DNA from: Thuidium tamariscinum
Lineage: Eukaryota; Streptophyta; Bryopsida; Hypnales; Thuidiaceae
Direction: 5' to 3'
Length of the DNA stretch: 64,000 nt
Assembly: GCA_947034885.2 (NCBI GenBank)
Contig: OX344758.2
Location: 8,062,501 to 8,126,500 of the forward strand
The notes beneath the pieces are model-generated. The model saw only the letters and a list, made by a program, of their open reading frames with translations, was not told the origin of the DNA and searched no databases. The position numbers and the translations under genes are program-made. Of the stretch, positions 12,404-59,470 are shown in pieces. Numbering within the stretch: the stretch's first letter is position 1; each line of letters starts with the position of its first letter.

Positions 12404-13020
12404 TTTAAACCTTAATTTTTTTAACTATGTTTTCATGAAAAATGCTTCAAAATTTCCATTTCTAATACAAGTATGAGATTTTAGGGAAAAACGTTTCTTG
12501 AGACATGTAACCATAGTATATTCTAGAACAATGGTTTGAGAGAATGTAGGAATAAATTTCAAAAAAATTCTCTTTGTAGATTGTAGAATATTGATGTTTT
12601 AAATGCCAACAATCTTTTCTTGCCTTGTAGAAAACTAGGTAGTTGCACTTCATGAGATCACAACTACTTGAAAAAATGTCTTAGTTGGTGGTGTTCCTTT
12701 GGATTCATTATTCAAAGAAAGTTTGCTACACACTTGAAAATTATGAGATCATTTGGATTTGTACAATATACAAGAAAAAACTAGTTAATAGAAATTAGAG
12801 GACGATTCAAAATATTACACTATTATGAGTATATTTATAGAATTGAAAAATGCCAATTCTAGTGGTTGTAATATTATAATAAACAATCTACATCCTGTAT
12901 TTTTTTTTTTCAAAAAATATTGAAAATTGAGTTAAATATTGGACTTAAAAGTTTATTTTAGAATATAAGATCTATAACTACCTACAAACTAAAACTTTTC
13001 ATAACTTTCATCTCATTAAT
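12404..13020 (+). mobile_element. TTAA-family non-autonomous transposon, truncated first member of a triplet
   Basis: From the TTTAAACCTTAA start the sequence follows the same order of landmarks as the intact copies (CTATGTTTTCA, ATGTAACCATAG, GAGAATGTAG, GTAGATTG, ATAACTTTC). It breaks off at about two-thirds length, where the next copy begins. It is in the same orientation as its two followers. The terminal bases are diverged, which suggests this is the oldest member. Confidence 0.65.
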
Positions 13021-13945
13021 TTAAGTTTCTTGACTATGTTTTCACCAAAAATGCTCCAAAAGACCAAAACTATAATTTCTAGTACAAATACTAAATTTTT
13101 GAAATAAATAAATAAATTTGGATACATATAAGTGTAATAACTTATAGTATGTTGGTTAGAGAAGATGTGGAAAAAAAATTCAGAAATTTCTACCATGTAG
13201 ATTGCTAGATATTAGTGTTTGAATTGACAAAAATAATTTTTTAGCCCTACAAAAAATAGGGTAGCTAAACTTCACAAGGTTATATGTACATGAAAAATGT
13301 ACATATCAATGGTGCTTCTTTGGATTCATTCTTCAAAGCAAGTTTGCTATATGCTTCAAAATTTTGAGATTATTTGGAATTGAACAACATGTAGGGAAAA
13401 AATAGTAACTAGAAAGGAGTAGTAAATGATTCAAAATACCAAATTGTTAATAATTGAATTGTGAAATTGAAAAATACGAATTCCAATAGTCTTAATGTTC
13501 TAATGAACAATCTATATTCTATAATTTTATTTTTTTCAATAAATATTCAAAATTGAGTTAAAGAGAGACCTTGAAAGATTATTTTAGAATATGGAAATCA
13601 TAACCAACGACAAACTAATCATTTTCATAGCTTTCATTTCATTTATCAAAATAGAATTATCTAAAGCTTTCTATGTTCATAGAAATCTAAATAAACAATT
13701 TCAAATTTTTATTTATAAAAAAGGTGATTTTTTCAAATCTATCCAGACTACCTATTTGGTGAAAAGAACTACAGTAACTTCTTAACCATGTAGTCAAAAG
13801 CTATGAGAACTACTATCCTATAAAGATATCCTCATCTACAAGTTGTCTAAAAAATAAGAAAATAAGAAAAAAAATAAAACCTTCATTTGTAGTTAGTTGT
13901 CCAAAATTTCTATGTTGCCAAGAAATGCAGCTTGTCCATTATAGG
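13021..13945 (+). mobile_element. TTAA-family non-autonomous transposon, second member of a head-to-tail triplet
   Basis: This copy is about 925 bases long and collinear with 13946-14877. It starts TTAAGTTTCTTGACTATG, a degenerate version of the family terminus, and ends in the family's typical GCCAAGAAATGCA stretch. It abuts the next copy directly. No transposase frame is present. Confidence 0.7.
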
Positions 13946-14877
13946 TTAACCCCTAAAGTTCTTTGACTATGCTTTCACCAAAACTACTCCAAAACTGTCA
14001 TTTTTAGGACAACTATCAAATTTTATAAAAGAACATTTTTGGAATAATGTAACCATAGGATCTTTTAGTTTACTAGTTCGAGAATATGTAAAAAAAAATT
14101 CAGAAAGTTTCGCCGTGTAGATTGCAAGATATTAGTGTTTGAAGTTGCAAAAGTCCTTTTTTTACCACTGCGAAAATCCGGGCAGCTGTGATTCAGAGGG
14201 CCACATTTGTATGAATTTTTTTTCAAAATGGTTGTTACTCTTTGGATTCATTCTTCAATTCAAGTTGGCTACATGCTTGAAAATTTTCAAATCATTTGGA
14301 ATTGTACAACATGTACAAAAAAAATAGTAAGTAGAAAGAAGTAGATAATGATTCAAAATACTAAATTGTTAAAAATTTATTTGTGAAATTGAAACTTGCC
14401 AATCCCAATGGTTCAAATGTTGTAATAAACAACCTACATCCAATGTTTTTATTTTTTTCCAAAAATATTGAAAATTGAGTAAAATAAAGGACTTCGAAGT
14501 TTTTTTTAGAGTAGGGAATCTATTACTACCCGCAAACTAAAACTCTTCATAACTTTTGACTCATTAGTCCAAATGAAATGATTCAAAGCTTTCCACATAC
14601 ATATAAATATATAAAACCAATTTCAAATTTTTATTTTCGAAAAAAGTGATTTTTTCTGATCTACCCAAACTGCCCGAGTTGAGAAATAAACAACATATAA
14701 TGCGATAACTTTTTAACCAAGTAGTCAAAAGTCACGAAAATTATTGGGCTTTAAAGATATTCCTCATCCACAACTTCTATTAAAATTTGGTCCCATAATA
14801 TGGAAATCTCTAGTCACACGTACCTACCCGAAATAGTTATGTTGCCAAAAAAGGCATGTTGATCCTTTAGGGGTTAA
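13946..14877 (+). mobile_element. TTAA-family (piggyBac-like) non-autonomous transposon, third member of the triplet
   Basis: TTAA at 13946-13949 is followed by CCCCTAAAG. The other end reads CCTTTAGGGG and then TTAA at 14874-14877, giving a 924-base body. A TTAA target duplication plus termini beginning CCC is the signature of the piggyBac superfamily. No coding capacity is seen, so it would have depended on a transposase from elsewhere. The superfamily assignment rests on ends and target site only. Confidence 0.8.
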
Positions 14878-15575
14878 TAGGTTTTGCAGTACTCTAAACA
14901 TAAGAGATTTAAATTCTTCTTTGTTTTCTTGCAAATCACATTTAAAATAGTTGCTTTTTGATGGTGATCAAGTTTTGTCATTTGAATGTTGTTTGAACTT
15001 AACTTAAATATTTGTTTGTTAGAGTATCTCCATAGTGATATGATCGTAAGAAATTTCTCACATTTTTGGCTGAAAAACATAGCTTTTTGCTATAGGATTG
15101 TAGTATTATGGAATACCACTAATACTATATGTTAGTAGCACCCTAACAAATCTAAACTATCAATTTAGGGTGCCTATAGATCTATATTGTTAGTTTAGTA
15201 CTATGTACTACTATAGATTGTTGTAGAGTACTTTAGAAGATATTAGGAACAAAAAATAGCATAAAAAGCATGTGTAGACTTTTTCATTTTTAGTAATAAA
15301 AAAATTCAAGTATTTTTTCTAAAACTGCCAATTTGCTAATGATGATTACCCTTGCATTTCACCAAAGAAATCTTCCAGGAAATTTTTTTTCCCTCTTTGT
15401 AGCCTTGTACAAAGGAAGGTCACTTTGACCCCATGTGTGCAACCAACATGTTGCTATTTTCATAAATACTCATTGTCAATCCTTGTAATATTTATAGACC
15501 TTCAATATGTCCAATTTGTGGTTTCAAAATTTCATTTTTGGGTCAAAAATAGGACTAAACCCCACTAGAGATGGC
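14878..15575. other. Intergenic AT-rich DNA
   Basis: I recognise nothing here. The sequence is AT-rich without long frames or clear internal repeats. Confidence 0.5.
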
Positions 15576-15625
15576 TAAGATAGACAGGTACACCCAAAAG
15601 TGCCACTTATTCTGTGCCTAGGTCA
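15576..15625 (+). mobile_element. End fragment of the TA-flanked 277-bp element family
   Basis: TA followed by AGATAGACAGGTACACCC, then AAAAGTGCCACTTATTCTGTGCCTAGG in pieces, matches the left 45-50 bases of the intact copy at 39618-39894. The match stops where GC-rich ribosomal-spacer-like sequence begins. The other end is absent. Confidence 0.6.
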
Positions 15626-15840
15626 TCCCCGCTCGCTCGGCCACTCCAAGTAATTCCGAGGAGTCCCGATTTTTTTCTAAGTGTCGGGTCAACCCGGTAG
15701 AGTGTCCCGGCGTGAGCGCACCCTGGAGTCCCGCGTCGCGGTGACTCCGCGCGCGCGCTGCTTGGGGTTCCAGTGATTTTTTCTAAGTTGGTTGCTTCCA
15801 CCGGTGTGATTATTCCCACCCTGGACCTGTCGCGCTGCAA
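15626..15840 (-). other. Ribosomal DNA intergenic-spacer-like fragment
   Basis: This GC-rich island, about 215 bases long, sits in otherwise AT-rich DNA. Read on the minus strand it lies immediately downstream of the large-subunit rRNA 3' end at 15841-15900, where the external spacer belongs. It contains two direct copies of a GATTTTTTCTAAGT motif about 105 bases apart (near 15668 and 15776), perhaps spacer subrepeats. Its identity as spacer is inferred from that adjacency, because spacers are not conserved between species. Confidence 0.5.
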
Positions 15841-15900
15841 GGGGGTAACAAATCGTTGGGACGATGAGGCCGAATCTCAATGGATCGTAGCAGCAAGGCT
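15841..15900 (-). pseudogene. Fragment of the 3' end of the 25S/28S rRNA gene
   Basis: Read on the minus strand, the stretch GCCTTGCTGCTACGATCC followed by ATTGAGATTCGGCC matches, with a few substitutions, the conserved 3' terminus of plant large-subunit rRNA. There GGCCTTGCTGCCACGATCC is followed by ACTGAGATTCAGCCC and a CGATTCG stretch. The similarity stops abruptly near 15905, so only about 60 bases of the roughly 3.4-kb gene remain. It is a relic and not a functional rRNA. The substitutions against an ultra-conserved sequence suggest it is not recent. A ribosomal-derived repeat family is an alternative reading. Confidence 0.7.
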
Positions 15901-17130
15901 CCCAATAAGAAGTAGGTTAAAAATATGCAAGACATTAAATTTGTCACACGAAATAAGACTACTGTAGTAGAATAAAATCTATATTTACAAGGGATAAAAG
16001 TAGAAAGTTACCTAATTTGTGCTATATTTAGGGTATATATCTTAACTTTGTGAAGCTAACTTGAAGCCTTTCATTGCAAATATGAAGTCCATATTTGCAA
16101 ATTTTATAATGAATAAAATAAATAAATAAATAATTTCAGCATTTCATTGGGCCAAAATAAATCTAGCCTACTAATCCTACTTCTGTTTGACAGATTTGAT
16201 GACTTCTTCAAAATAGTAAACTAATTTGAAAAAATTGAAAAAGTTATTAAATTGTCTATAACTATTGTATGTACCTTCATTTGAAGTTTCACATCAAATG
16301 GACAGATGATGCAAAAATTTTGAGCAAAAAAACACTTGTCTGAGGGCAAAGAGACAAAAAATAGGACAACTGTTTCTTGCAATCATCCAATAGTATGGTA
16401 AGAGGTGCCATATTGTAGCTAAGAGCATCATGTAGTAGCATATTAAGAAGCACAAATATGGCCAATAGCAATGCAATAGCTAAGAAATTGCCCCATGGCA
16501 CACACTCCAAGTGAAAAGTGATGACCGGCTACTTCAAAAAGTGGAAAGGGAAGAGGCAAGTAGAGAGTCTTCAACATAGCTCGCTAGGTATTTAAAAATC
16601 CTTTTGCCCCAATGCTTTTCAAAAACTCAAATGAATCTCCTTATAGGCCATGACTCTTCAATTAAGATATTTTCTTAAACAAGGCCCACCAAACCTCTAA
16701 GATTGTTTTTTTGGCACCCCTTTCACAAAGCTTGTTGTGGAGATATTCTTTGTCAAGCAAATAGATCTTTAATTTGAGAAAGAGTCCAACATTGTTAATG
16801 CTACTCATTGAGTATGTTTTGTCAACTCATAATAGTTGATGGAAGCCTTTTCCCATATGTTGTTTTAGGAAGTTTTCATTAAATATTCATAAGTACTTAG
16901 AAATTTGAAACCCCATCTAGGATTAAATTGAGAACCTTGAGTTGGTGCAAGGGTAATGGTAATCTAGGCTTGTGATTGGATCCCTACTACTTCAATAATT
17001 CAATAATTCAAATCTTGCTTATAATGAAGATAATTCATATCTAGTGCTAGTTATCTTTGAGCACATGTTTAAGATAAAGAATATTTTAGAAAATATTGAA
17101 GATGAATGAAGCCATTTCAATTTTCATCAC
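15901..17130. other. Intergenic AT-rich DNA
   Basis: No gene is recognised. A minus-strand open frame near 16289-16510 is short and without motifs. The boundary of the rDNA relic lies at the left edge. Confidence 0.5.
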
Positions 17131-18060
17131 TTCACCCCTAAAGGACCAAAGTGCCTTTTTTGGCAACATAGTGATTTTGGGTAGGTACATGTGACTAGAG
17201 ATTTTGATGTTTTAGAACCAAACTTTAATAGAAGGTGTAAACAAGGAGTATCTTCAAAGCCCAACAAATTTTGTGACTTTTGACTACATGGTTGAAAAGT
17301 TATTGCATGATATGTTGTTTGTTTGTCAACTTGGGCAGTTTAGGCACATCAGAAAAAGTCATTTTCTTTGGAAATAAAATTTTTTAATTGGTTTTATATA
17401 TTTATATATATGTGGAAAACTTTGAATCATTCCATTTGAATTAATGAGTCAAAACTTATGAAGAATTTTAGTTTCTGGGTAGTTATGGATTCTCTACTCT
17501 AAAAGAAACTTTGAAGTTCCTTATTTTACTCAATTTTCAATATTTTTGAATTTTTTTAATAAAATTGGGTGTAGATTGTTTATTACAACATTTGAACCAT
17601 TGGAATTAGCACTTTTCAATTCAACAAATAAATTGTTAACATTTTAGTATTTTGAATCATTCTCTACTTCTTTCTACTTACTATTCTTCTTGTACATGTT
17701 GTACAATTCCAAATGATTTGAAAATTTTCAAGAACGTAGCCAACTTGATTTGAAGTATAAACCCAAAGGATAACAATCATTTTGAAAAAAAATTCATACA
17801 AATGTGGCCTTCTGAATTGCAGTTACCCAAATTTTCGCAGTGGTAAAAAAAGGACTTTTGCAACTTGAAACAATAATATCTTGCAATCTACATGGCGAAA
17901 CTTTCTGAAATTTTTTCTACATTTTCTTGAACTAGTTCTCTAAATGATCCTATGGTTACATTATTCCAAAAAAAAATTCTAAAATTTGGTAGTTGTCCTA
18001 GAAATGATAGTTTTGGAGCAGTTTTGGTGAAAACATAGTAAAAAAACCTTTAGGGGTTAA
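17131..18060 (-). mobile_element. TTAA-family (piggyBac-like) non-autonomous transposon, inverted copy
   Basis: The left end reads TTCA then CCCCTAAAGGACC. The right end reads CCTTTAGGGG then TTAA at 18057-18060, with a body of 922 bases. Internal landmarks are the reverse complement of the 13946-14877 copy, so it lies in the opposite orientation about 2.3 kb away. One flanking TTAA has become TTCA. No coding capacity is seen. Confidence 0.8.
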
Positions 18061-27674: not shown

Positions 27675-28374
27675 TTAAAGTAGGCAACCCCAAATGTGCT
27701 ACTAATCTGAAACTGCCATCATCACTTAGTGAATATCTCTAAAATCAATAAGTACCTAATTATATGGAAGAAACAATTTTGGAACCTCTATTTAAAAAAA
27801 CACTTTGATCCTTCATAACTTTTGCATATGGTGTCCAAATGTCACATTTTTTGGTATGTTGGAGCCTCCATAAAAAAATAACCTTTGATTCTTCATAATT
27901 TTTGCATATAGTACCCAAATGTCACATTCTTTCATGTGTTGGAACCTCTACAAAAAAAATAACCTTTGATCCTTCATAACTTTTGCATATATCAATGCCC
28001 AGATGTCACATTCTTTGGTGTGTTGGAGCCTCTATAACAAAATAACCTTTGATTCTTCATAACTTTTGGACATAGTGCCCAAATGTCACATTCTTTCATG
28101 TGTTGGAACCTCAATAAAAAAAATAACCTTTGATCCTTCATAACTTTTGGATATACTGCCAAATATTACATTCTTTCATGTGTTGGAACGTCAATAAAAA
28201 AAAACCTTTGATCCTTCATAACTTTTGCATACCATGCCCAAATGTCACATTCTTTGGTGTGTTGGAACCTCTTTTCACTTGGCAACAAGAAAATGAAAGA
28301 AAATTTAACCATCCTAATAATAGTAGCTACCACATACAATAGCACAAAGTAGTAGTTTTGGGGTTTCTACCTTA
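27675..28374 (-). mobile_element. TA-flanked MITE enlarged by an internal 80-bp tandem array
   Basis: The left end reads TTAAAGTAGGCAACCCCAAA and the right end TTTTGGGGTTTCTACCTTA. These are inverted repeats of the same type as the intact 277-base copies at 30430, 33989 and 39618. Between them lie about six 80-base units (landmark TTGGAACC or TTGGAGCC at about 27778, 27859, 27939, 28022, 28102, 28182 and 28262). Each unit repeats the internal segment CATAACTTTTGCATA...CCAAATGTCACATTCTTT...TTGGAACC, which is single-copy in the other elements. After the last unit the sequence resumes the normal element order (TTTCACTTGGCAACAAGA). The array therefore arose inside the transposon. Confidence 0.75.
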
Positions 28375-31399: not shown

Positions 31400-32040
31400 T
31401 TAATTCTTGTAGTAAGTGTTTTTTGAAAATGTGCTTGGAGGATCGGCATCATCTAAATCACAAGAATGAAACGAGGAGTGGCTCGATTCTCAATTCTCAT
31501 AGCATGCATTTTTTGGAGATGTATGTGGAGGATCAGCATCATCTGAACATGGTTGAACCTTGTTAAGAATGAAATTAGGAGTCTAGATTCTCAATTCTCA
31601 CAGCATGCATTTTTTGGAGATGTGCTTGGAGGATCGGCATCTTCTGAACATGGTTGAACCTTGTCAAGAATCAATTGAGGGTTTTTGATTCTCAATTCTC
31701 GTAGTATGTGTTTTTTGGAAATGTGCTGGGAGGATTAGCATCATTGAAGCATGGTTGAACCTTGTTGAAAATTAAATGAGAATTCTTGATTCAATTCTCA
31801 TAGCGTGCTTGATTTGGAAATGTACTTGGATTAGCATCTTCGAAGCATGGTTGCCAACCTTCTCAAGAACTAATTGAAGATTCTCGATCCTCAATTCTCA
31901 TAGCATGTGTTTTTTTGGAGATCAGTGTTTGGAGGATCAGCATCATCGAAGATAAGCATGGTTCCTATTGTTGAATCCCATTGATGGAAATTGGAAGAGG
32001 GTTTCCAATTCTCAATTCTCTTATTATGTCTTTTTAGGGG
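31400..32040. repeat. Tandem repeat of about 100-bp units, six to seven copies
   Basis: The landmark CAATTCTC recurs at about 31491, 31592, 31693, 31792, 31892 and 32013, with a diverged first copy near 31402. Each unit then reads roughly ATAGCATGTGTTTTTTGGAG, ATGTGCTTGGAGGATCAGCAT and CATGGTTGAACC. The copies are diverged and of unequal length (99-121 bases). No continuous reading frame spans the array, so I treat it as non-coding. Confidence 0.8.
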
Positions 32041-33084: not shown

Positions 33085-33345
33085 ACCGAAAGCAAATGAA
33101 TGAACCATCCATCTTTTAACTTACGTAAGGAATAAATTAAATGAACCCAAATGATCCCCTCATGAAAAGTACAAATTTAATCAATGAATGATCCATTTCA
33201 TGCAAAGTACAATTCAAATGAACAAACAATCCATTGAATGTAAAGTACAAATCAAATGAAAGAACAATCCATTTTACAAAAAGTACCAGTCAAATGAACA
33301 AACCATCCATTTTGTATAAAGTACAAATCGAATGACCGAATGGTG
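33085..33345. repeat. Tandem repeat of about 39-bp units, five to six copies
   Basis: The word AAAGTAC recurs at about 33165, 33204, 33242, 33280 and 33318. It is followed each time by AAATCAAATGAA-like and AACAATCCATTTT-like words. Spacing is about 38-39 bases, and the copies are diverged. Confidence 0.75.
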
Positions 33346-34740: not shown

Positions 34741-35635
34741 TGAAACAACCCTCCAATGTCCCCCCAAAACATCTAATGGTAGGACCTTGTACTACATTGG
34801 TTTGAGAGGATGTAGAAAAATTTCAAAAACTTTCACCTTGCAGATTGAATCATTTTTTTGCTTTGGCCCTACAAAAAAGCATGTAGCTATACTTTATAAA
34901 GTCACATTTGTATGGAAAAATGTCTGAAATGGTAGTGCTTCTCTGGATTCATTCTTCAAGGCAAGTTAGCTAGATGCTTTGAAAAAATTCTAATCAATCA
35001 TGATTGTACAACATATAGGAAAAAAATAGTAAGTTGAAAGAAGTAGCCAATGATTCAAATTACTAATTTGTTAAGAATTTAGCTGTGGAATAGAAAAATG
35101 TCAATTCCAATTGTTGTAATGTTTTAATAAACAATCTACAACATATAATTTTATTTTTTCCAAAGAATGTTGAATATTGAATTAAATTAAGGACTTCAGA
35201 GGTTATTGTAGAATAGAAAATTCATAATTGCTTGCAAACTAAAATTCTTTATAATTTTCATCTCATTAATTAAAATGGAATGATTTAAAGCTTTTCACAT
35301 ATATATATATACAAAAATCTAGAAAATCAATTTCAAATATTCATTTTTGAAAAAAGGCGATATTTGAAAGAAAATCATTTGTTTGGGCTACCTACTAAAC
35401 AATTAAAACTACATACTCCATATTATACAATAACTTTTTAACCATGTATTCAAAAGTTATAGAAATTGGTTAAAAAAAAAAGTCATAGAAATTGTTGTGC
35501 CTCAAAACTATTCCTCAGGCATATGTTTTGTGAAAATTTCAAAGAAACAAAATAACAACTCCATTTGTAGTAATCTGCCAATTGAAATCACTATATTGCC
35601 AAAAAAACCCTGTAAAATGGGCTTTTAGGGGTTCA
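34741..35635 (+). mobile_element. TTAA-family (piggyBac-like) element, left end degraded
   Basis: Its interior follows the family order (GATGTAGAAAAATTTCA, GTAGCTATACTT, TTGGATTCATTCTTCAA, AACAATCTACA, ATAACTTTTTAACCATGTA). It ends CTTTTAGGGG followed by TTCA at 35632-35635. The left terminus is no longer recognisable, so the start is approximate. It is in the same orientation as the triplet at 12.4-14.9 kb. Confidence 0.65.
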
Positions 35636-51888: not shown

Positions 51889-52195
51889 CATTAGATGAAA
51901 TTTGAGGGCATTAGGAGACTACGAGTTCTCGGACTGCGGGAACGTAGTTTCTGCCTTGTGAACTCGAATCCTACGTGGTCGGGACACTACCACGTAATAA
52001 TTTTTTTTTCAAATATTTTTTGGGACTTATTTTCATATTTCAGAACCCAAATTTTTTATTTTTTATTTTTTTATTTTATTTTTATTTATTTTTTATTTTG
52101 GGTAAAAGTCGGCCTGACAACAGCCAACGGCAGTGGGAGCCGTTTCGGGAACAGACCCGAAACGGCCCTGTAATGCCCTCATATTTCATCTAATG
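51889..52195. mobile_element. MITE with 25-bp terminal inverted repeats and internal hairpin
   Basis: The left end reads CATTAGATGAAATTTGAGGG followed by CATTA. The right end is its inverted copy with one mismatch (TAATGCCCTCATATTTCATC, then TAATG). Just inside the right end lies a perfect 11-bp stem: GCCGTTTCGGG (52139-52149), a 6-base loop, and CCCGAAACGGC (52156-52166). The centre is a long ATTTT-rich run. The target duplication is unclear, so the superfamily is not assigned. It is non-coding. Confidence 0.72.
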
Positions 52196-53129
52196 ATTAT
52201 AAATAATTATCAAGCAAAGGAACAAACATTAATATTGCAAAGCACTATTAGAAATCCGTATTTTTTATATTGTTTTCAAAACAAAGAAGGCCTATCATGT
52301 TTTTCACATGTTAGTATGATAAATAATGAATAGCCATATGTGAGCTACCGATTTGTCACTTGGGACTCACTTTTCTTCTTTTTTTCAATTTTTTTCAAAA
52401 TATAGTATGTAAAATAGTACATAAAATCCAAATAATAGTATAAAACTAAAATAGATATGTTACATGCTAATATAGTATTTGGTCATATTTTGAGTGTTTG
52501 TAACCATTTAGATCAAAACCCTGCTTGTAAATAGGTTAGAAATCTGTAAAACTCAAATAAAATTTATTTTTGGTAGATTTACTTAAAATAGTCCCACCTA
52601 TTGTGCATGAGATGAAGTTGGCTAAAATAGGTTTAAAAGAATTTGGGGAGAACCATAGAGCCTAGTTTCTTGAATAGGTTTCAAATTCTCAATCGATTTC
52701 TATTTTTTTTGTAGAAACCCCACTATTAGGCTATAAGTTTGGAAAACATGGTGACGGACCAATGAAGGAAATCTATGGCCAAAAAATGGTGTTTTGGAGT
52801 TGAATTCATGCTAAAAACTCAATGGCAAAGTCACTTTGTCAAGATTCTTTACTATGTGGAAGATTCCTCGGACCCTGATAATTCAAGGATGGCGTGGGAT
52901 TTTACTATCCTTTGACAATCATGTAGAGCCTATATATATGCTTACACATTTTTTTGGATTCCACAGGAGGTCCCTGTAGTCTAAGTTTTGTCTAAATCCT
53001 ACAACACCTAGGACTATAGTATAGGGGTTCAAATCTAGGGGAATGATCAAATAGTCTAATGTATTGTGGCTAAAGTCACTTGTAATTAGAAATGGAATAG
53101 GAAATACACAATATTAACACTTCAATTTC
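52196..53129. other. Intergenic AT-rich DNA
   Basis: I recognise nothing in this stretch. Confidence 0.5.
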
Positions 53130-55994
53130 GAACAATTAGTATTCACTCTTATTCCCAGGTATACAAATTTGTTGGCTAGTCCTTAATAATGCTATGAATG
53201 CATGAATGTAGTTCCAATCCTTCACTAGTGTGTGGCTCAATTTCTATAAACAATTAGTCGTGTAGACCAACAATTTGTCATGCATGATCTAAACTTAAAT
53301 GCACTTTAAAATATAATATAATATATATAACAATTGAGTAACACATGGTTCATTAATTACTGATAATTGTCTTTACCAAACAAATTGTTACTGTCACTAT
53401 TTAGCTATCCAAATTACTAATTAGGATGCACAAGGAAATAGTCCTTGTACTATCTAAAAACAATTTGTCACTATCTAAATGCAGGGCATGAGTGTGTAAT
53501 GCAAGCTCCTTGTTTTATCTGCACTTCACAACCATTGGTTTACTAATTAGCTGATACCCAATTTCAAACAAGTTGTTGGAATTAAGTCTTGATAAGACCA
53601 AGTACCAAACACCAAGTCCAAAAACAATTTGTTTTAAACACAATCTCATACCAAAACCAAATCTTCCTTTCCAACAACCATATCTAATAAACTATTAGTT
53701 CATACAATTCTAACCAATAAATAATTCTTTACAAATTTCCTTTCCTATCAACAAATGATTTATCAAAGTATTATTTTATAAACCATTAGTATGTAAGGCA
53801 ACTTGAATAATCAACTACAACTACAGCTTCCTACAATTTGTCCAAAGTCCCAAGTTACTCACAAGGTAGTGAGCCAGTCGGTCCTAACTAATTGTTTTAC
53901 AAAAGTAATGTCTGTCAACAACTAGACTAAACAATTAATAAGCAACGATTAATTGAAGAACCAAATTCCAAAACAAATGGTTAACATGAATTCAAATAAT
54001 TGAACCATTCGTTTTACAATTCGTTTATAGCTGTAAATCTACAATCTCTATAATTGATCAATTGATTCACAATGACTTACATGCTATACAACTAGTTTCA
54101 AAACCATTACGACAATCAGTCTATAATTAATTACAATGCTTAATACTTTATTAACTAACAATTTTCACACAAACTGACTAATTGTAATTCACAAAATAAA
54201 ACCAAGAAATTGACCAAACATCATAAGTTAATTGTATTTGAACTAGTTGTTGATGCAGCTTACTCCAACCAAGCACATACACACACAACTAGGAACCCAA
54301 AACAATTAGTCAATTTCATCCAAAACAGTAAACTATCATTAGCATAATATAACACAAGTGGTTTTGGAAATGAATTAGCAACAACCGGGACAATTAGTTT
54401 TAATTAACCACAGTATTACACAATTTGTTCAAAGCCCAGGGTTAACAACTTCCATTAGACCAAATCAATGTATCATAATCATCAAAACAATTAGTAGCAT
54501 AAACATATTATGATACAATTCAATTGAATACATTAATGATCAAGAACTAAAACAAATGGTTTCAAGATATTAATACAATAAAATACACTCCGTTCCGATT
54601 CAAAGATTACCACCATTTGTAACATTCTTTTTCAACTGGACAAGTTCTTTAAATAACTCCACAAGAAATTTCTCCAATGGGAATCTCATACTATTGATAA
54701 TTTGATACCAATTGTTCTAAATTTGATCAACTCACACTAGAAGAAATCCCTGTTAATTTCAACGCAGCACGTCAGGTAGATTGTGTTGAGACTACGTTGC
54801 TGAAAACGCGGAAAAAACACAAAAAACACGCTTTCTGTGTTTTTCTGCGTTTTTTCTACGTTTTTTCTGCATTTTCAGCATTGTCTTGTGTTTTCAGCAA
54901 CGCAGTCTCAACACAATCTACCTGACGTGCTGCGTTGAAATTAACAGGGATTTCTGCGTTTTTCTTCTAGTGTCAATAAAGATATTATCATTTATATAAT
55001 GACTAGTTAATCAAAATTCCAGTATAAATTTATCGGCTATAATGTGTTGCTTTAACTATTTGTAACCAAGAATCTCCAATACAATTTGATTAACCATGTA
55101 TAAATTTAAAGTATTACAAATGGTTCAATCATACCAACAATGTAATTTTATAAATCACTTAATAATTGGAAAACGTACCAAATCATGCACAACTCCTATC
55201 TATAGCGGCCTAACTAATTGTTGGACTGCACCATCTCCATCACTTAGAATCGTGGTGGAATCTCTAGCAGCTTCTCCACATCACACCATTTTGGTCCTCA
55301 CACTTAAACAATTAGTCTTTCACCACAACAAGTACAAGCTACCAAGTAAGCTCACATCCAGACTATTTGTTTCCAACAGATTGACTCCACTCTTTCCATC
55401 AATAAATCCAGCATTCTAAATCAATCAAAATTCACAAACAAAAATAGCCACACAAACAATTTATTGATACATCACCCACATAATCAAACAAGTCGTTGAA
55501 ACTAGATTCACTAATTCATATTCAATAATCTACCACACAATTCGTTCAATTGCAACAACAGACCAAAATCACACCACTAAATCTGAACATACACAAATTA
55601 ATTTCTAACTTGTTCAAACAATCAAACACACCAACACAATTTGTTACTCAAGAATTCACAACCACACAAAAATTCTCCTTCAAAATCCAATCACTGGATA
55701 ACAAACAAAACAATTTGTATATGCCTCCACCTCAAATAACAACAAGTCCAATCATTGGACAACCAAACATACACACAAACACAATTTGTAAAATATACTT
55801 GCATTAAAATTTGAAGGAGTTCATCATTACAACAAAAACAATTTAACTAAAAACCGAAATGTAAACCGAGAAAACCGAGAAAGTGGGGGCGGAAAACTTC
55901 AAATTGTCAGACTATATGCTACAGGAGAGATGAAGGAAGAAAAACCGCTTGAACTACCGGCAGACTAGTTATTTGTCGATCAAAGACAATTAGT
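53130..55994. repeat. G-poor tract with a recurring 9-base near-palindrome (ACAATTTGT/ACAATTAGT)
   Basis: Exact ACAATTTGT occurs at 53270, 53460, 53624, 53833, 54420, 55636, 55710 and 55781. Exact ACAATTAGT occurs at 53132, 53250, 54302, 54390, 54487, 55308 and 55986. One- or two-base variants (ACAAATTGT 53380, ACTAATTGT 53887 and 55213, ACAATTCGT, ACAAATGGT, ACTATTTGT, ACAACTAGT) fill the gaps, giving a site about every 45-70 bases. The DNA between sites shows no alignable repeat unit. The + strand is strikingly poor in G, most visibly at 53560-54500 and 55420-55860. A CACTA element (54735-54972) interrupts the tract. I cannot match it to a known class. Confidence 0.7.
54732..54975. mobile_element. 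CACTA-type foldback MITE with TCA target duplication
   Basis: The body 54735-54972 (238 bases) starts CACTAGAAGAAATCCCTG and ends in the inverse (TTTTTCTTCTAGTG). It is bounded on both sides by TCA. The arms pair over roughly 90 bases; they include CAGCACGTCAGGTAGATTG and its exact inverse, with one 8-base indel. The arms are nearly identical, so this insertion looks young and would form a long hairpin if transcribed. It carries no transposase. Confidence 0.88.
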
Positions 55995-56305
55995 TTTAAA
56001 GTAACTACTAGTTATCATTTACTTAGTAATAGGAAAACTATAACTATTGGTCTATCTTTTCACTTCCAATAATCCAAAACTAAATATTTACTAGTAGTTT
56101 TTCACTATAAAAAACAAATAGTCAAAATTAGAAAAAAAAAACGAAGGTGACTACAGTCCCTCAAAAAGTTTTGAAGTTTTTTGATACCTAGAAGATGCTT
56201 CTCTAAACAGTCAACTGCTCTAACCTCCAATCGAAAATTTTCATAAATTACTTAGGTTGTGGTAAAATCTCATTAAAAATTAGGATAACTTTATATGTTA
56301 AGTTG
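55995..56305. other. Intergenic AT-rich DNA
   Basis: This is a short spacer between the motif-rich tract and a TTAA-family copy. Nothing is recognised. Confidence 0.5.
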
Positions 56306-57214
56306 TTAACCCCTAAAGATTTTTTACTATGTTTTCACCAAAACTACTCCAAAATTGTCATTTCTAGGACAACTATCAAATTTTAGAAATTTATTTTTTG
56401 GGAATAATGTAACCATAGGATCTTCTAGTGCACTAGTTCGAGAAGATGTAGAAAAATTTCAGAAAGTTTTGCCATGTAGATTGCAAGGTATTAGTATTTG
56501 AAGTTGAAAAAGTCCTTTTTTTACCATTGCGAAAATCCAGGCAGCTGCGATTCAAAAGGCTACATTTGTATGAAATTTTTTTCAAAATGATTGTCACTCT
56601 TTGGATTCATTCTTCAATTCAAGTTGGCTACATGCTTGAAAATCTTCAAATCATTTGGAATTGTAGAACATGTACCAAAAAAATAGTAAGTAGAAAGAAA
56701 TAGAGAATGATTCAAAATACTAAAATATTAACAATTTATTTGTTGAATTGAAAAATGCCAATTCCAATGGTTAAAATGTTGTAATAAACAATCTATACCC
56801 AATTTTTTTAAATTTTTTTCAAAAATATTGAAAATTGAGTAAAATAAAGGACTTGAAAATAGAGAATCCATAACTGCCTAGAAACTAAAATTCTTCATAA
56901 CTTTTGATTCATTAATCCAAATGGAATGATTCAAAGATTTCCATATATATATAACCAATTTCAAATTTTTATTTCCAAAAAAATTGGGTTTTTTTTATCT
57001 GTCCAAATTGCCCGAGTTCAGAAACAAATGACATATCATGCGATAACTTTTCAACCATGTAGTCAAAAGTCATGAAAATTGTTGGGCTTTGAAGATACTC
57101 CTCATCCACACCTTCAATTAAAGTTTGGTTCCAAAATATCAAAATCTCAAGTCACACATACTTGCCCAAATTGCTATGTTGCCAAAAAAGGCACTTTGGT
57201 CCTTTAAGGGTTAA
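56306..57214 (+). mobile_element. TTAA-family (piggyBac-like) non-autonomous transposon
   Basis: TTAA at 56306-56309 is followed by CCCCTAAAGATTTTTT. The far end reads GGTCCTTTAAGGG followed by TTAA at 57211-57214. The body is 901 bases and collinear with 13946-14877, with a small internal deletion. Both flanking TTAA are intact. It is non-coding. Confidence 0.85.
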
Positions 57215-59126
57215 TAAAAGTTTTCAACAAGTTTTAAGACAATCCAATAGCCAAAAATATCCAAACTGAAGGGATCCTCACCAAATTGACAAAATTAAAG
57301 ATTACGGTGGAGGTTGACTAGTGTTTTGGATGCCCACAAAATTGGAATGTGGTTCAAGTTAGGTCTTTTTTTATTCCCTTGCACCTACTAAAGACCCTAG
57401 CTAGTTACTTTTTACAAAAAAGTCAAACTCTAAAAGTTGAATTTTTACTTTTTTTGGTTGTTAAATTGGTGCTAGGATTTGTTGAGTTTTTGGTGTATGA
57501 AAAATGGGTGAGGGATTTTTTCAAACTAAAAATGGAGTTCTAAAGCCAATGGTGCAATCCATTTGTGATTTGCAATTGATCTCCAAAAGTTAAAAAATAG
57601 ACCAACATAAAAAGTTAAAATTGGTTAGATTAGGATGAAAATCCTAGGTGATAAGATTACCGTACAAAAATGAGAAGAGGTGGGTGCTTATGAAACAGTC
57701 TATATGGACACTTATTTCTCTCTCAAAACACCTCTTGTAGCCATTTTTTAACTACACGTCCATGTTGATCCATTTAAGTGGATTTTTGACCAAGTTTGAG
57801 TTAAGTTTGAGCCAAGTTGTTACAATGTGTGCATTTTAGAGCATTTCAAGCTCCTAATTTGTGTCTTTATTAAAACTTTGAAGGACATTGAAATTCCTTC
57901 AAAGTCTGCTAACCCTTTGTGGTGTTTTTGGAATTTTTGGTGTATTTTGTTGAAATTTTGGTTGGAGTTCTGTTGAGGATTAACCTTTTGTACTAATCTT
58001 AGAGGATTCTTCCTTTATAATTAGCAATGCTGCTTAGAGAAGGTCTTAAGTGTGTAGTTTGAGTGATTCATGTACTAATCTTTGTACTAACGTATTGTAA
58101 GTATTTTAAAGTATAATAATTTGTGTTGGAGTTGGAGTTGTACTAACCATTTGTGTGTCCCCATTTTCCTTGTTCCATTTAAGACGACAAAGCTTTAACT
58201 CTGGAAAGGGAAAGTGGATTAGAATTTTGTTTGTATTACAATTTCACAACAAAGCTTTGACTTCACATAGTTGGAATTTTGTTAGAATTTCCTCTATACA
58301 CTAACTTACTGCAAAATTTTGGCTTTTTGTGGTTTAATTTATTTAGTATTTTGCCCATATCCAAAAATATGGCAAAGCTTTAACACACACACACACCCTT
58401 GCCTATTTTGTTAGAAAGTCTTGGAGTAAAAAATGTGGAGGTATAACTGTATAAGGTGTTTTAAGGTGTCTTTGAAAATGACTATTTGTCGTGACAAAAA
58501 TCCCAAACAAACATTTGATTTGGTGCTCAATTTTGGGACCAACCCCTAGGCGCATAGATAGGCCAAGTAGGTACGGCTAGCCATCCTCTGACCTGGCTTG
58601 GCCAACTTGTTGCTAGGGACCGGATGACCAAGCCTCAACCCAATTGAGGCCCAGGGGTCCACGGCTAAGGCTTGGGGTCCGTGGTTAAAGGCTCAGGGGG
58701 TCTGCGGCTAAAGACTTGAGGGTTGTCAACGAACTAAATTAGGGTTGTGAATTGAACGTGAAAAGAGGCTAGGTGGAGAATTGACCTCCCTCTTCACTAT
58801 TGTCACTAAATTCAGACAATTCTTCTTAAAAATTATTGTGTTTTGAATAGATTAGAGAAGCATTGGGAAAAAAGGAGAAAAGAAGGGAGAAGGGAGAAGG
58901 TTGGAGGTGCAAATTAATATTTTGTGAATTAGATTTGGAAGAAGAAATTAGGGATTAGGAAGTGGAGATTAGCAATAGAAGTAGTTCCAAGTGCCATTAA
59001 GCTCACCACTCTTTCACTCATTAGCCTACCAACTATAATAAAAGTTCAAAGTAGAGTTCAAAAACTCAAAGAGAATGATAGTGTGAGTGTGAGTTAGGAA
59101 TTGAGTTTGTTATACAATTGATGGGC
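57215..59126. other. Intergenic DNA
   Basis: A short (AC)n run lies near 58384-58397. Around 58640-58725 the phrase GGGTCCGTGGCTAAGGCTT, or close variants, recurs about three times. No gene is recognised. Confidence 0.45.
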
Positions 59127-59470
59127 GTTAAATAATACCATCAAAGCCCTCGGGGAAAAACGCTGAATTTTTTTTTTTTTTTCAAATTTTGAATTCAGAT
59201 TCAAAATCAGAGACCCCAAATTAGTGAGGGGACCCTGAATGTATTAAAAAACCCAACACAAATATAAATCCCAAACCCTTGTCAACCCCTATTGAAATGA
59301 GATTTGCCCCGCTGGACCCCCTTTTGATGGTATTCTTTAACCCCAAATTAGCTAGAAGGACCCTGAATGTACCAAAAAACCCAATACAAATATAAATCCC
59401 AAACCCTTGTCAACCCCTAATAAAATGAGATTTGCCCCGCTGGACCCCCTTTTGATGGTATTCTTTAACG
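59127..59470. mobile_element. MITE with a tandem duplication of its right half
   Basis: The left end reads GTTAAATAATACCATCAAAG. The right end reads its inverse, TTTTGATGGTATTCTTTAAC. The segment 59214-59340 is repeated almost exactly at 59341-59467 (about 127 bases, including CCCAAACCCTTGTCAACCCC and GAGATTTGCCCCGCTGG), so the right terminus is present twice. The duplicates differ at only about a dozen positions, so the duplication is younger than most repeats here. Superfamily and target duplication are unclear. Confidence 0.7.

Follow-up and report, generated by a model that had tools for sequence, protein, structure and literature searches.

A Dispersed Non-Coding Mobile Element of Thuidium tamariscinum with a Dense Array of the Gapped Palindrome ACnAnTnGT

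Introduction

To our knowledge, the VANDAL elements are the best-known case in which densely arrayed motifs recruit a protein in a sequence-specific manner. Arrays of a short protein-binding motif are also found in the CACTA (En/Spm) and hAT (Ac/Ds) elements, where they occupy the end few hundred bases; the target duplications of these two groups are 3 and 8 bp, respectively, and their motifs differ in sequence from the one described below. The target duplication of Mu-type elements is approximately 9 bp. Binding-site arrays are common in long terminal repeats (LTRs) in general.

For the VANDAL elements, the available part of the report on VANC21 describes its binding to the motif YAGTATTAY, which is densely arrayed in the non-coding parts of VANDALs (PMC5735166). 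In the same text, a low density of the motif elsewhere was not associated with VANC21, methylation was lost around the VANC21 sites, and related VANDAL families were described as having other motifs (PMC5735166). The part consulted of a further source states that Gypsy LTRs start with TGTNR, that the Ginger transposons do so as well, and that Ginger1 and most Ginger2 elements have inverted repeats of approximately 40–270 bp and 4-bp duplications (PMC2836005).

Here, we describe a tract from Thuidium tamariscinum in which an initial annotation, made by inspection of the sequence, had pointed out an array of a 9-base near-palindrome, ACAATTWGT. The tract represents a single member of a family of non-coding mobile elements, approximately 3 kb long and dispersed in the genome, and the repeated motif is a perfect gapped palindrome. 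In the literature search, the exact 9-mers of the array were not found, and no title or opening of an abstract described the element family.

Materials and Methods

The genome (363 Mb in 19 contigs) was searched with pieces of C10:8062501-8126500, the 64-kb stretch of DNA that was analyzed as a whole and is referred to as the window. Positions are those of the window unless a locus (L) or contig (C) is named. The best 40 of 229 candidates were scored for the query with the 5' end and the best 40 of 88 for the query with the 3' end. The places considered as possible LTR pairs were the best 40 scored in each search, of 166, 229, 93, 224, and 70 candidates.

Target duplications were counted in 22 copies; L036, L042, and L056, each with an unreadable end, were left out, as was the first copy of a pair on C3. 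The conservation of sites was determined by a leave-one-out procedure, in which each copy in turn defined the sites and was then excluded from the comparison. The copies are related, and thus the 18 that were aligned do not amount to 18 independent observations. Since 48 aligned sites had been picked because no fewer than half of the copies have them intact, their count is no evidence of selection, and the substitution rates derived from them were set aside for that purpose.

Results

The tract constitutes one whole transposable-element copy of 3181 bp, nested insertion included (Table 1). The array recorded in the initial annotation is real and is larger than stated there; its borders, given there as 53130–55994, are not those of the element, which extends from 52975 to 56155. 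With 53080–54730 as the query, at least 57 matching pieces were obtained from the same genome (best 40 of 166 candidates scored), and the borders of the copies scored correspond to window position 52975 at the start and to the vicinity of 56155 at the end. Both ends could be read in 22 copies. The 5' end is TGTAGTC in 20 of these and TGTAGTT or TGTCGTC in the other two; the 3' end is GACTACA in 20 and GAATATA or GCCTACA in the remainder. The perfect terminal inverted match is limited to these 7 bp, TGTAGTC/GACTACA. Of the 22 copies, 17 have an exact 5-bp target duplication, and the remaining 5 have one that agrees at 4 of 5 bases. At lengths other than 5 bp, the flanks matched exactly in one instance at 2 bp and in none at 3, 4, 6, 7, or 8 bp. 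Loci L060 and L061, with 5' ends for which no 3' end was listed, were considered as special forms and proved to be ordinary copies.

The longest stop-to-stop frame was 73–109 codons in the 18 copies; when one copy was shuffled 100 times, the longest frame averaged 82 codons and reached 126 at most. No frame exceeded the shuffled range, and an autonomous copy was thus rejected among these 18. Neither an autonomous element nor a site-binding protein was found among the copies scored, and Rfam gave no match in window 52000–57000.

Table 1. Features of the element copy in the window.
Feature	Position	Strand	Basis
Target-site duplication, left (GTCCC)	52970..52974	.	Duplication measured over 22 copies
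Whole non-coding transposable-element copy, TGTAGTC...GACTACA	52975..56155	+	Genome copies, common ends, duplications
Conserved 5' block, 90–94% identical to 17 other aligned copies (150-base windows)	52975..53574	+	Alignment
Arrayed ACnAnTnGT palindromes (41), on average 68 bp apart when the nested insertion is excluded	53132..56122	.	
Fast-evolving middle, 47–59% identity	54475..55524	+	MAFFT alignment, 17 other copies
Nested CACTA-type hairpin, 238 bp, starts CACTAGAAGAAA, ends TTCTTCTAGTG	54735..54972	.	Read in sequence
Conserved 3' block, 80–88% identity (windows scored 55675–56124)	55675..56155	+	Alignment, 17 other copies
Target-site duplication, right (GTCCC)	56156..56160	.	Same duplication measurement, 22 copies

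Between the blocks listed in Table 1, the identity of the window copy to the 17 other copies was 79–84% over 53575–54324, 67% in 54325–54474, and 66% in the 150-base window directly after 55524. Two groups of copies have little or no detectable similarity to each other in the middle, and the array is retained in both. The middles of the window copy (W), L038, L043, L052, and L054 each share fewer than 100 aligned bases with 11–13 of the 17 other copies. The hairpin within the middle is a later insertion into the element. It is flanked by the target duplication TCA (54732–54734 and 54973–54975) and contains a 66-nt inverted repeat (54742–54807/54890–54955) that is 98% complementary; the bases at 54775–54924 are present in none of the 17 other copies. 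The absence of a tandem repeat behind the motif, proposed at the outset, was borne out: the sole TRF report in the element is an 11-base repeat at 54832–54875, inside the nested insertion.

Other features of the window were recorded in passing. Two genes, with frames read by eye, are taken here to be an MCM-helicase-like gene at 9.3–10.9 kb and a phosphoglycerate-mutase-like gene at 22.5–24.0 kb. Tandem repeats unrelated to the array are located at 27779–28272 (80/164 bp), 31461–31951 (101/202 bp), 33160–33335 (38/76 bp), and 59213–59469 (128 bp). At 51889–52195 and at L055:2559-2785 there is a short element whose inverted ends are of the CATTAGATGAAAT type; the two loci match at 78–79% over 117–123 bases. 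A further repeat came to light in the comparison of loci L015, L019, and L057 with the window. It is found at 12577–17890, 34885–35606, and 56477–57217 in pieces that are 66–89% identical, and it lies shortly past the 3' end of the element.

The 9-mer ACAATTWGT occurs 15 times on the plus strand of 53130–55994, the number originally reported, and 4 times on the minus strand, with no occurrence elsewhere in the 64-kb window. In 500 dinucleotide-preserving shuffles of the tract the mean was 0.16 per strand and the maximum 2, and the reported excess over chance is thus upheld. The depletion of G on the plus strand was likewise confirmed, the base composition of 52975–56155 being A 0.383, T 0.302, C 0.197, and G 0.118. 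The near-palindrome itself is real and was drawn too narrowly. The differences between copies at aligned sites follow a pattern, such that ACAATTTGT in one copy corresponds to ACAACTTGT, ACAATTGGT, or ACTATTTGT in another. This pattern pointed to ACnAnTnGT, a word that is perfectly palindromic and leaves three positions free. This word ranks first, with 774 sites in the 18 copies, among all gapped 6-base words with a span of 8–11. Among palindromes of this form, the second most frequent has 136 sites, and the runners-up shown overlap ACnAnTnGT. At 464 of the 774 sites the palindrome is also preceded by a purine and followed by a pyrimidine, relative to approximately one-quarter expected from composition.

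The 41 sites of the window copy compare with a mean of 1.3 and a maximum of 6 in 1000 shuffles made without the nested insertion. Outside this copy the window contains 11 sites, and each of 108 overlapping segments of the same length elsewhere in the window holds at most 2. Every one of the 18 copies carries 33–49 sites, relative to 1.1–1.6 in shuffles. In the middles of the copies, 222 sites were counted in 17,351 bases, relative to 5.1 in mononucleotide shuffles. The density of sites in the middles ranges from 4.3 per kb (L049) to 17.4 per kb and is 8–13 per kb in W, L038, L043, L052, and L054, the five copies with divergent middles named above.

The count across the genome that had been proposed as a check gave 10315 + 10139 occurrences of ACAATTWGT on the two strands, relative to 3101 + 3183 for the pattern read backwards. 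Only part of this excess appears to be attributable to the TGTAGTC...GACTACA family. The excess over the reversed control, approximately 14,000 sites, is above the supply from the listed copies of the family, and other array-bearing families may therefore exist.

The median distance between sites in the 18 copies was determined to be 60 bases, and distances shorter than 15 bp made up 1.9% of the total rather than the 19% expected. The coefficient of variation (CV) of the spacing was 0.51–0.65 in 15 of the 18 copies; when sites were placed at random 500 times, at least 99.8% of the placements had a higher value. The spacing is irregular in L043, L049, and L052 (CV 1.41, 1.12, and 1.57, respectively), which are the three longest copies. 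Helical phasing of the sites is weak, with a vector length of 0.13–0.16 at 10.5–11 bp.

The leave-one-out identities at the fixed positions 1, 2, 4, 6, 8, and 9 of the palindrome were 0.89, 0.87, 0.95, 0.92, 0.82, and 0.90, respectively. Those at the free positions 3, 5, and 7 were 0.82, 0.76, and 0.75, and those of the flanks 0.70–0.79; the fixed G (0.82) is thus not better conserved than free position 3. When bases of the same letter were compared, the fixed A residues (0.89 and 0.95) exceeded flanking A (0.76), the fixed T residues (0.92 and 0.90) exceeded flanking T (0.77), the fixed C (0.87) exceeded flanking C (0.69), and the fixed G (0.82) exceeded flanking G (0.64). The margin of each fixed base over same-letter flanks is 0.13–0.18, from which selection is the likely cause, and the sites have likely been kept by it. 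Changes at the fixed C are mostly C-to-T (39 of 60) and those at the fixed G mostly G-to-A (64 of 90), and the flanks behave likewise. As a control, 62 other gapped words of the same letters, each with at least 15 hits, were scored in the same manner (mean 0.770, SD 0.076, maximum 0.952), and 5 of them were as conserved as ACnAnTnGT (0.891) or more. The commonest control word had 82 hits, and none was nearly as frequent as ACnAnTnGT. The exact ACAATTWGT likewise overlapped its control: its conservation, 0.863, fell inside the spread of values for 21 permuted 9-mers (mean 0.751, SD 0.097, maximum 0.931).

A sister family was recognized from loci L055 and L059, which are 78.5% identical over 960 columns. 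Along the first 530 bases from the 5' end, L059 is 67–69% identical to those copies of the TGTAGTC family with which its alignment is continuous. The start of the sister family was first assigned as TGTTGTCC; this was rejected since the matching 5' end in L062 reads TGCAGTC (L062:290), and no 5' end was located for L055 itself. A search with the TGCAGTC end listed 39 other places, of which 25 begin within one base of that end (query 13–15), and one of these 25 starts like the first family. In L055 and L059 together (3,071 bases), CAAnTTG is the commonest 6-base palindrome, with 28 sites, and ACnAnTnGT has 14, whereas the window copy has 13 and 41, respectively. In the 1,305 bases of L055, 13 CAAnTTG sites were found relative to 0.9 in shuffles, and 10 ACnAnTnGT sites relative to 0.5. 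At the CAAnTTG sites, few in number, 44 of 48 fixed bases agree between L055 and L059, at an overall identity of 82%. As a lead from the two copies read, the palindrome preference may have shifted in the sister family from ACnAnTnGT to CAAnTTG.

L059 also contains approximately 1.5 kb at L059:1750-3260 (C1:35273649-35275160) that is mostly single-copy in the genome and has decayed frames on the minus strand. This segment is perhaps a captured or degenerate gene; its 10 frame pieces matched no Pfam family at the curated cut-off.

Discussion

The closest parallels in design are VANDAL21 and VANDAL6 from Arabidopsis, which, as far as the available texts describe them, resemble the element reported here in that a short motif, 9 bp long in the case of VANC21, is densely arrayed in non-coding DNA (PMC5735166, PMC10398659). 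In the same partial texts it is density, rather than single sites, that marks an element, related families have different motifs, and the arrays evolve quickly, all of which resembles the present case (PMC5735166, PMC10398659). The two differ in content: VANDALs carry their own VANA, VANB, and VANC genes, whereas no genes were found in the element described here, and no growth of its array by tandem repetition is visible. The VANC motifs YAGTATTAY and AGTTGT(C/A)C occur 0–1 times each per element in the 18 copies, which have instead a perfect gapped palindrome, TGTAGTC...GACTACA ends, and a 5-bp duplication. A duplication of the Mu type was not seen, since all 22 copies have 5 bp. From the duplication, the ends, and the motifs, the element is not a VANDAL. 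The VANC domain DUF1985 (PF09331) had no match in the genome, but it had none in 14 control genomes either.

Ends of the form TGTAG...CTACA, combined with a duplication of 5 bp, are characteristic of insertion by an integrase of the retrovirus type, and the element may be either a solo LTR or an integrase-type DNA transposon. The copies could be solo LTRs, with a length of 3 kb, of an extinct Gypsy-type retrotransposon, the palindromes then serving as its enhancer array or silencer-binding array. We regard this as a serious possibility at somewhat less than even chances, and it concerns the class of the element more than the function of the array. The ends agree with the TGTNR start of Gypsy LTRs in the part of the source available (PMC2836005), and the CA end, the 5-bp duplications, and the stand-alone units are what solo LTRs would be expected to exhibit. 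A tRNA primer-site pattern of the initiator-Met type had no hits. A broader primer-site pattern, GGTGACTACA followed by TGG within 3 bases, was found 35 times, twice as often as the reversed control (18), and none of the 35 matches lies at the 40 listed 3' ends when compared by eye.

A difficulty for solo LTRs is that hallmarks of an LTR are present, yet no paired LTRs were seen among 115 distinct places. These places yielded two same-strand pairs within 20 kb, and both appear to be separate insertions. C3:40286500-40305900 was rejected as a full-length LTR element, since its two copies have the duplications CCAAT (first copy, with an altered 3' end) and ATGGG. C5:27447-27460 kb was rejected as an LTR pair, since the outer flanks differ (AAATA and CTACC, with ends partly inferred); its downstream copy has altered ends and seemingly a duplication of its own, CCACC/CTACC (4 of 5). 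Of 20 units, 18 were readable at both ends, and all 18 have duplications (14 exact and 4 at 4 of 5 bases). Moreover, the outer ends are the most conserved part of the element and the middle the least, and this conservation, together with the extreme density of palindromes and the lack of any paired or full-length form among the places scored, sets it apart from Gypsy solo LTRs. Most candidates were left unscored, and thus an intact LTR relative may have been missed.

The Ginger and TDD transposons offer the other comparison, since they have TGTNR ends and, in TDD-4/5, 5-bp duplications in the text available (PMC2836005). They differ from the element described here in that its inverted repeat is 7 bp and no coding copy was found.

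The reading we favor, and consider somewhat better than an even bet from the sequence, is that the element is non-autonomous and bears a multivalent array of binding sites, recognized by a dimeric protein that is probably specific to the element. A perfect palindrome with alternating fixed bases, present approximately forty times per element, seemingly under selection and with no gene found, suggests a multivalent landing array for a homodimeric protein. The initial proposal of a protein-binding array in which the motif alone is conserved is supported by the pattern of conservation. The element would have been inserted by an integrase of the retrovirus type or a similar enzyme. Each palindrome would bind a homodimer of a sequence-specific protein, most likely supplied by an unseen autonomous relative, and the many sites would be kept by selection because the protein acts through high local occupancy. 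In the manner of VANC, this protein may open or unsilence the chromatin of the element, or it may gather the element for mobilization. The anti-silencing step on its own is put forward tentatively, as a suggestion somewhat below the solo LTR in probability, and the assembly of a transposase or the binding of a host factor would leave the same trace in the sequence.

A binding platform for the transposase of the element, or for an accessory protein, is a somewhat unlikely alternative in which the array would function in cutting and joining, as the subterminal repeats of CACTA and hAT elements do, with no relation to silencing. The element resembles those groups in having many copies of a short motif inside mobile DNA. 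The sites are dense in both end blocks (the final 170 bases of the window copy contain five), and non-autonomous copies keep their sites, as expected if mobilization needs them. The array, however, spans the whole body of the element, the middle included, and extends well beyond the subterminal few hundred bases. CACTA ends with a 3-bp duplication were found only for the nested insertion at 54735–54972 and not for the element itself.

The same conservation would result if a host transcription factor or architectural protein bound to the palindromes, with the element being driven or repressed by it, and arrays of this kind are familiar from LTRs. We nonetheless consider it unlikely. The sister family, in the two copies read, seems to have shifted its palindrome, and such a shift fits a co-evolving protein of the element better than a conserved host factor. 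The sole host palindrome tried, CAATNATTG, which we take to be that of HD-Zip proteins, is rare, with 0–2 sites per copy on both strands.

A motif left without selection from an ancient tandem repeat of the CENP-B kind or from biased mutation, both raised initially, is highly improbable despite the strand asymmetry along the whole element and the equal conservation of some other same-letter words, since the fixed bases resist substitution better than same-letter flanks, TRF and a repeat search gave no tandem or head-to-tail unit, the CENP-B core is absent from the 18 copies, and the element is dispersed with its own ends and target duplications.

Conclusions

The observation of a motif array was confirmed and sharpened, and its first interpretation was right in part, the repeat family and the gapped palindrome having been missed. 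The array is real, unusually dense, and probably under selection, and it is the defining feature of this family of non-coding mobile elements. A multivalent array for a dimeric protein leads to a broader proposal, which is rather a long shot, of a second and independently evolved system of anti-silencing or mobilization of the VANC kind. Its carriers would be non-coding elements that have retrovirus-type ends and do not belong to the Mu-like group, and it would act through a dimeric element protein and a gapped palindrome that diverge together between sister families (ACnAnTnGT versus CAAnTTG, with the common core CnAnTnG). The palindrome is defined sharply enough to serve as direct bait for the protein, and with it the joint divergence of site and protein could be followed through the sister families. 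If an unrelated element has indeed reached a design like that of the VANDALs, dense arrays would be a general way for mobile DNA to address itself.
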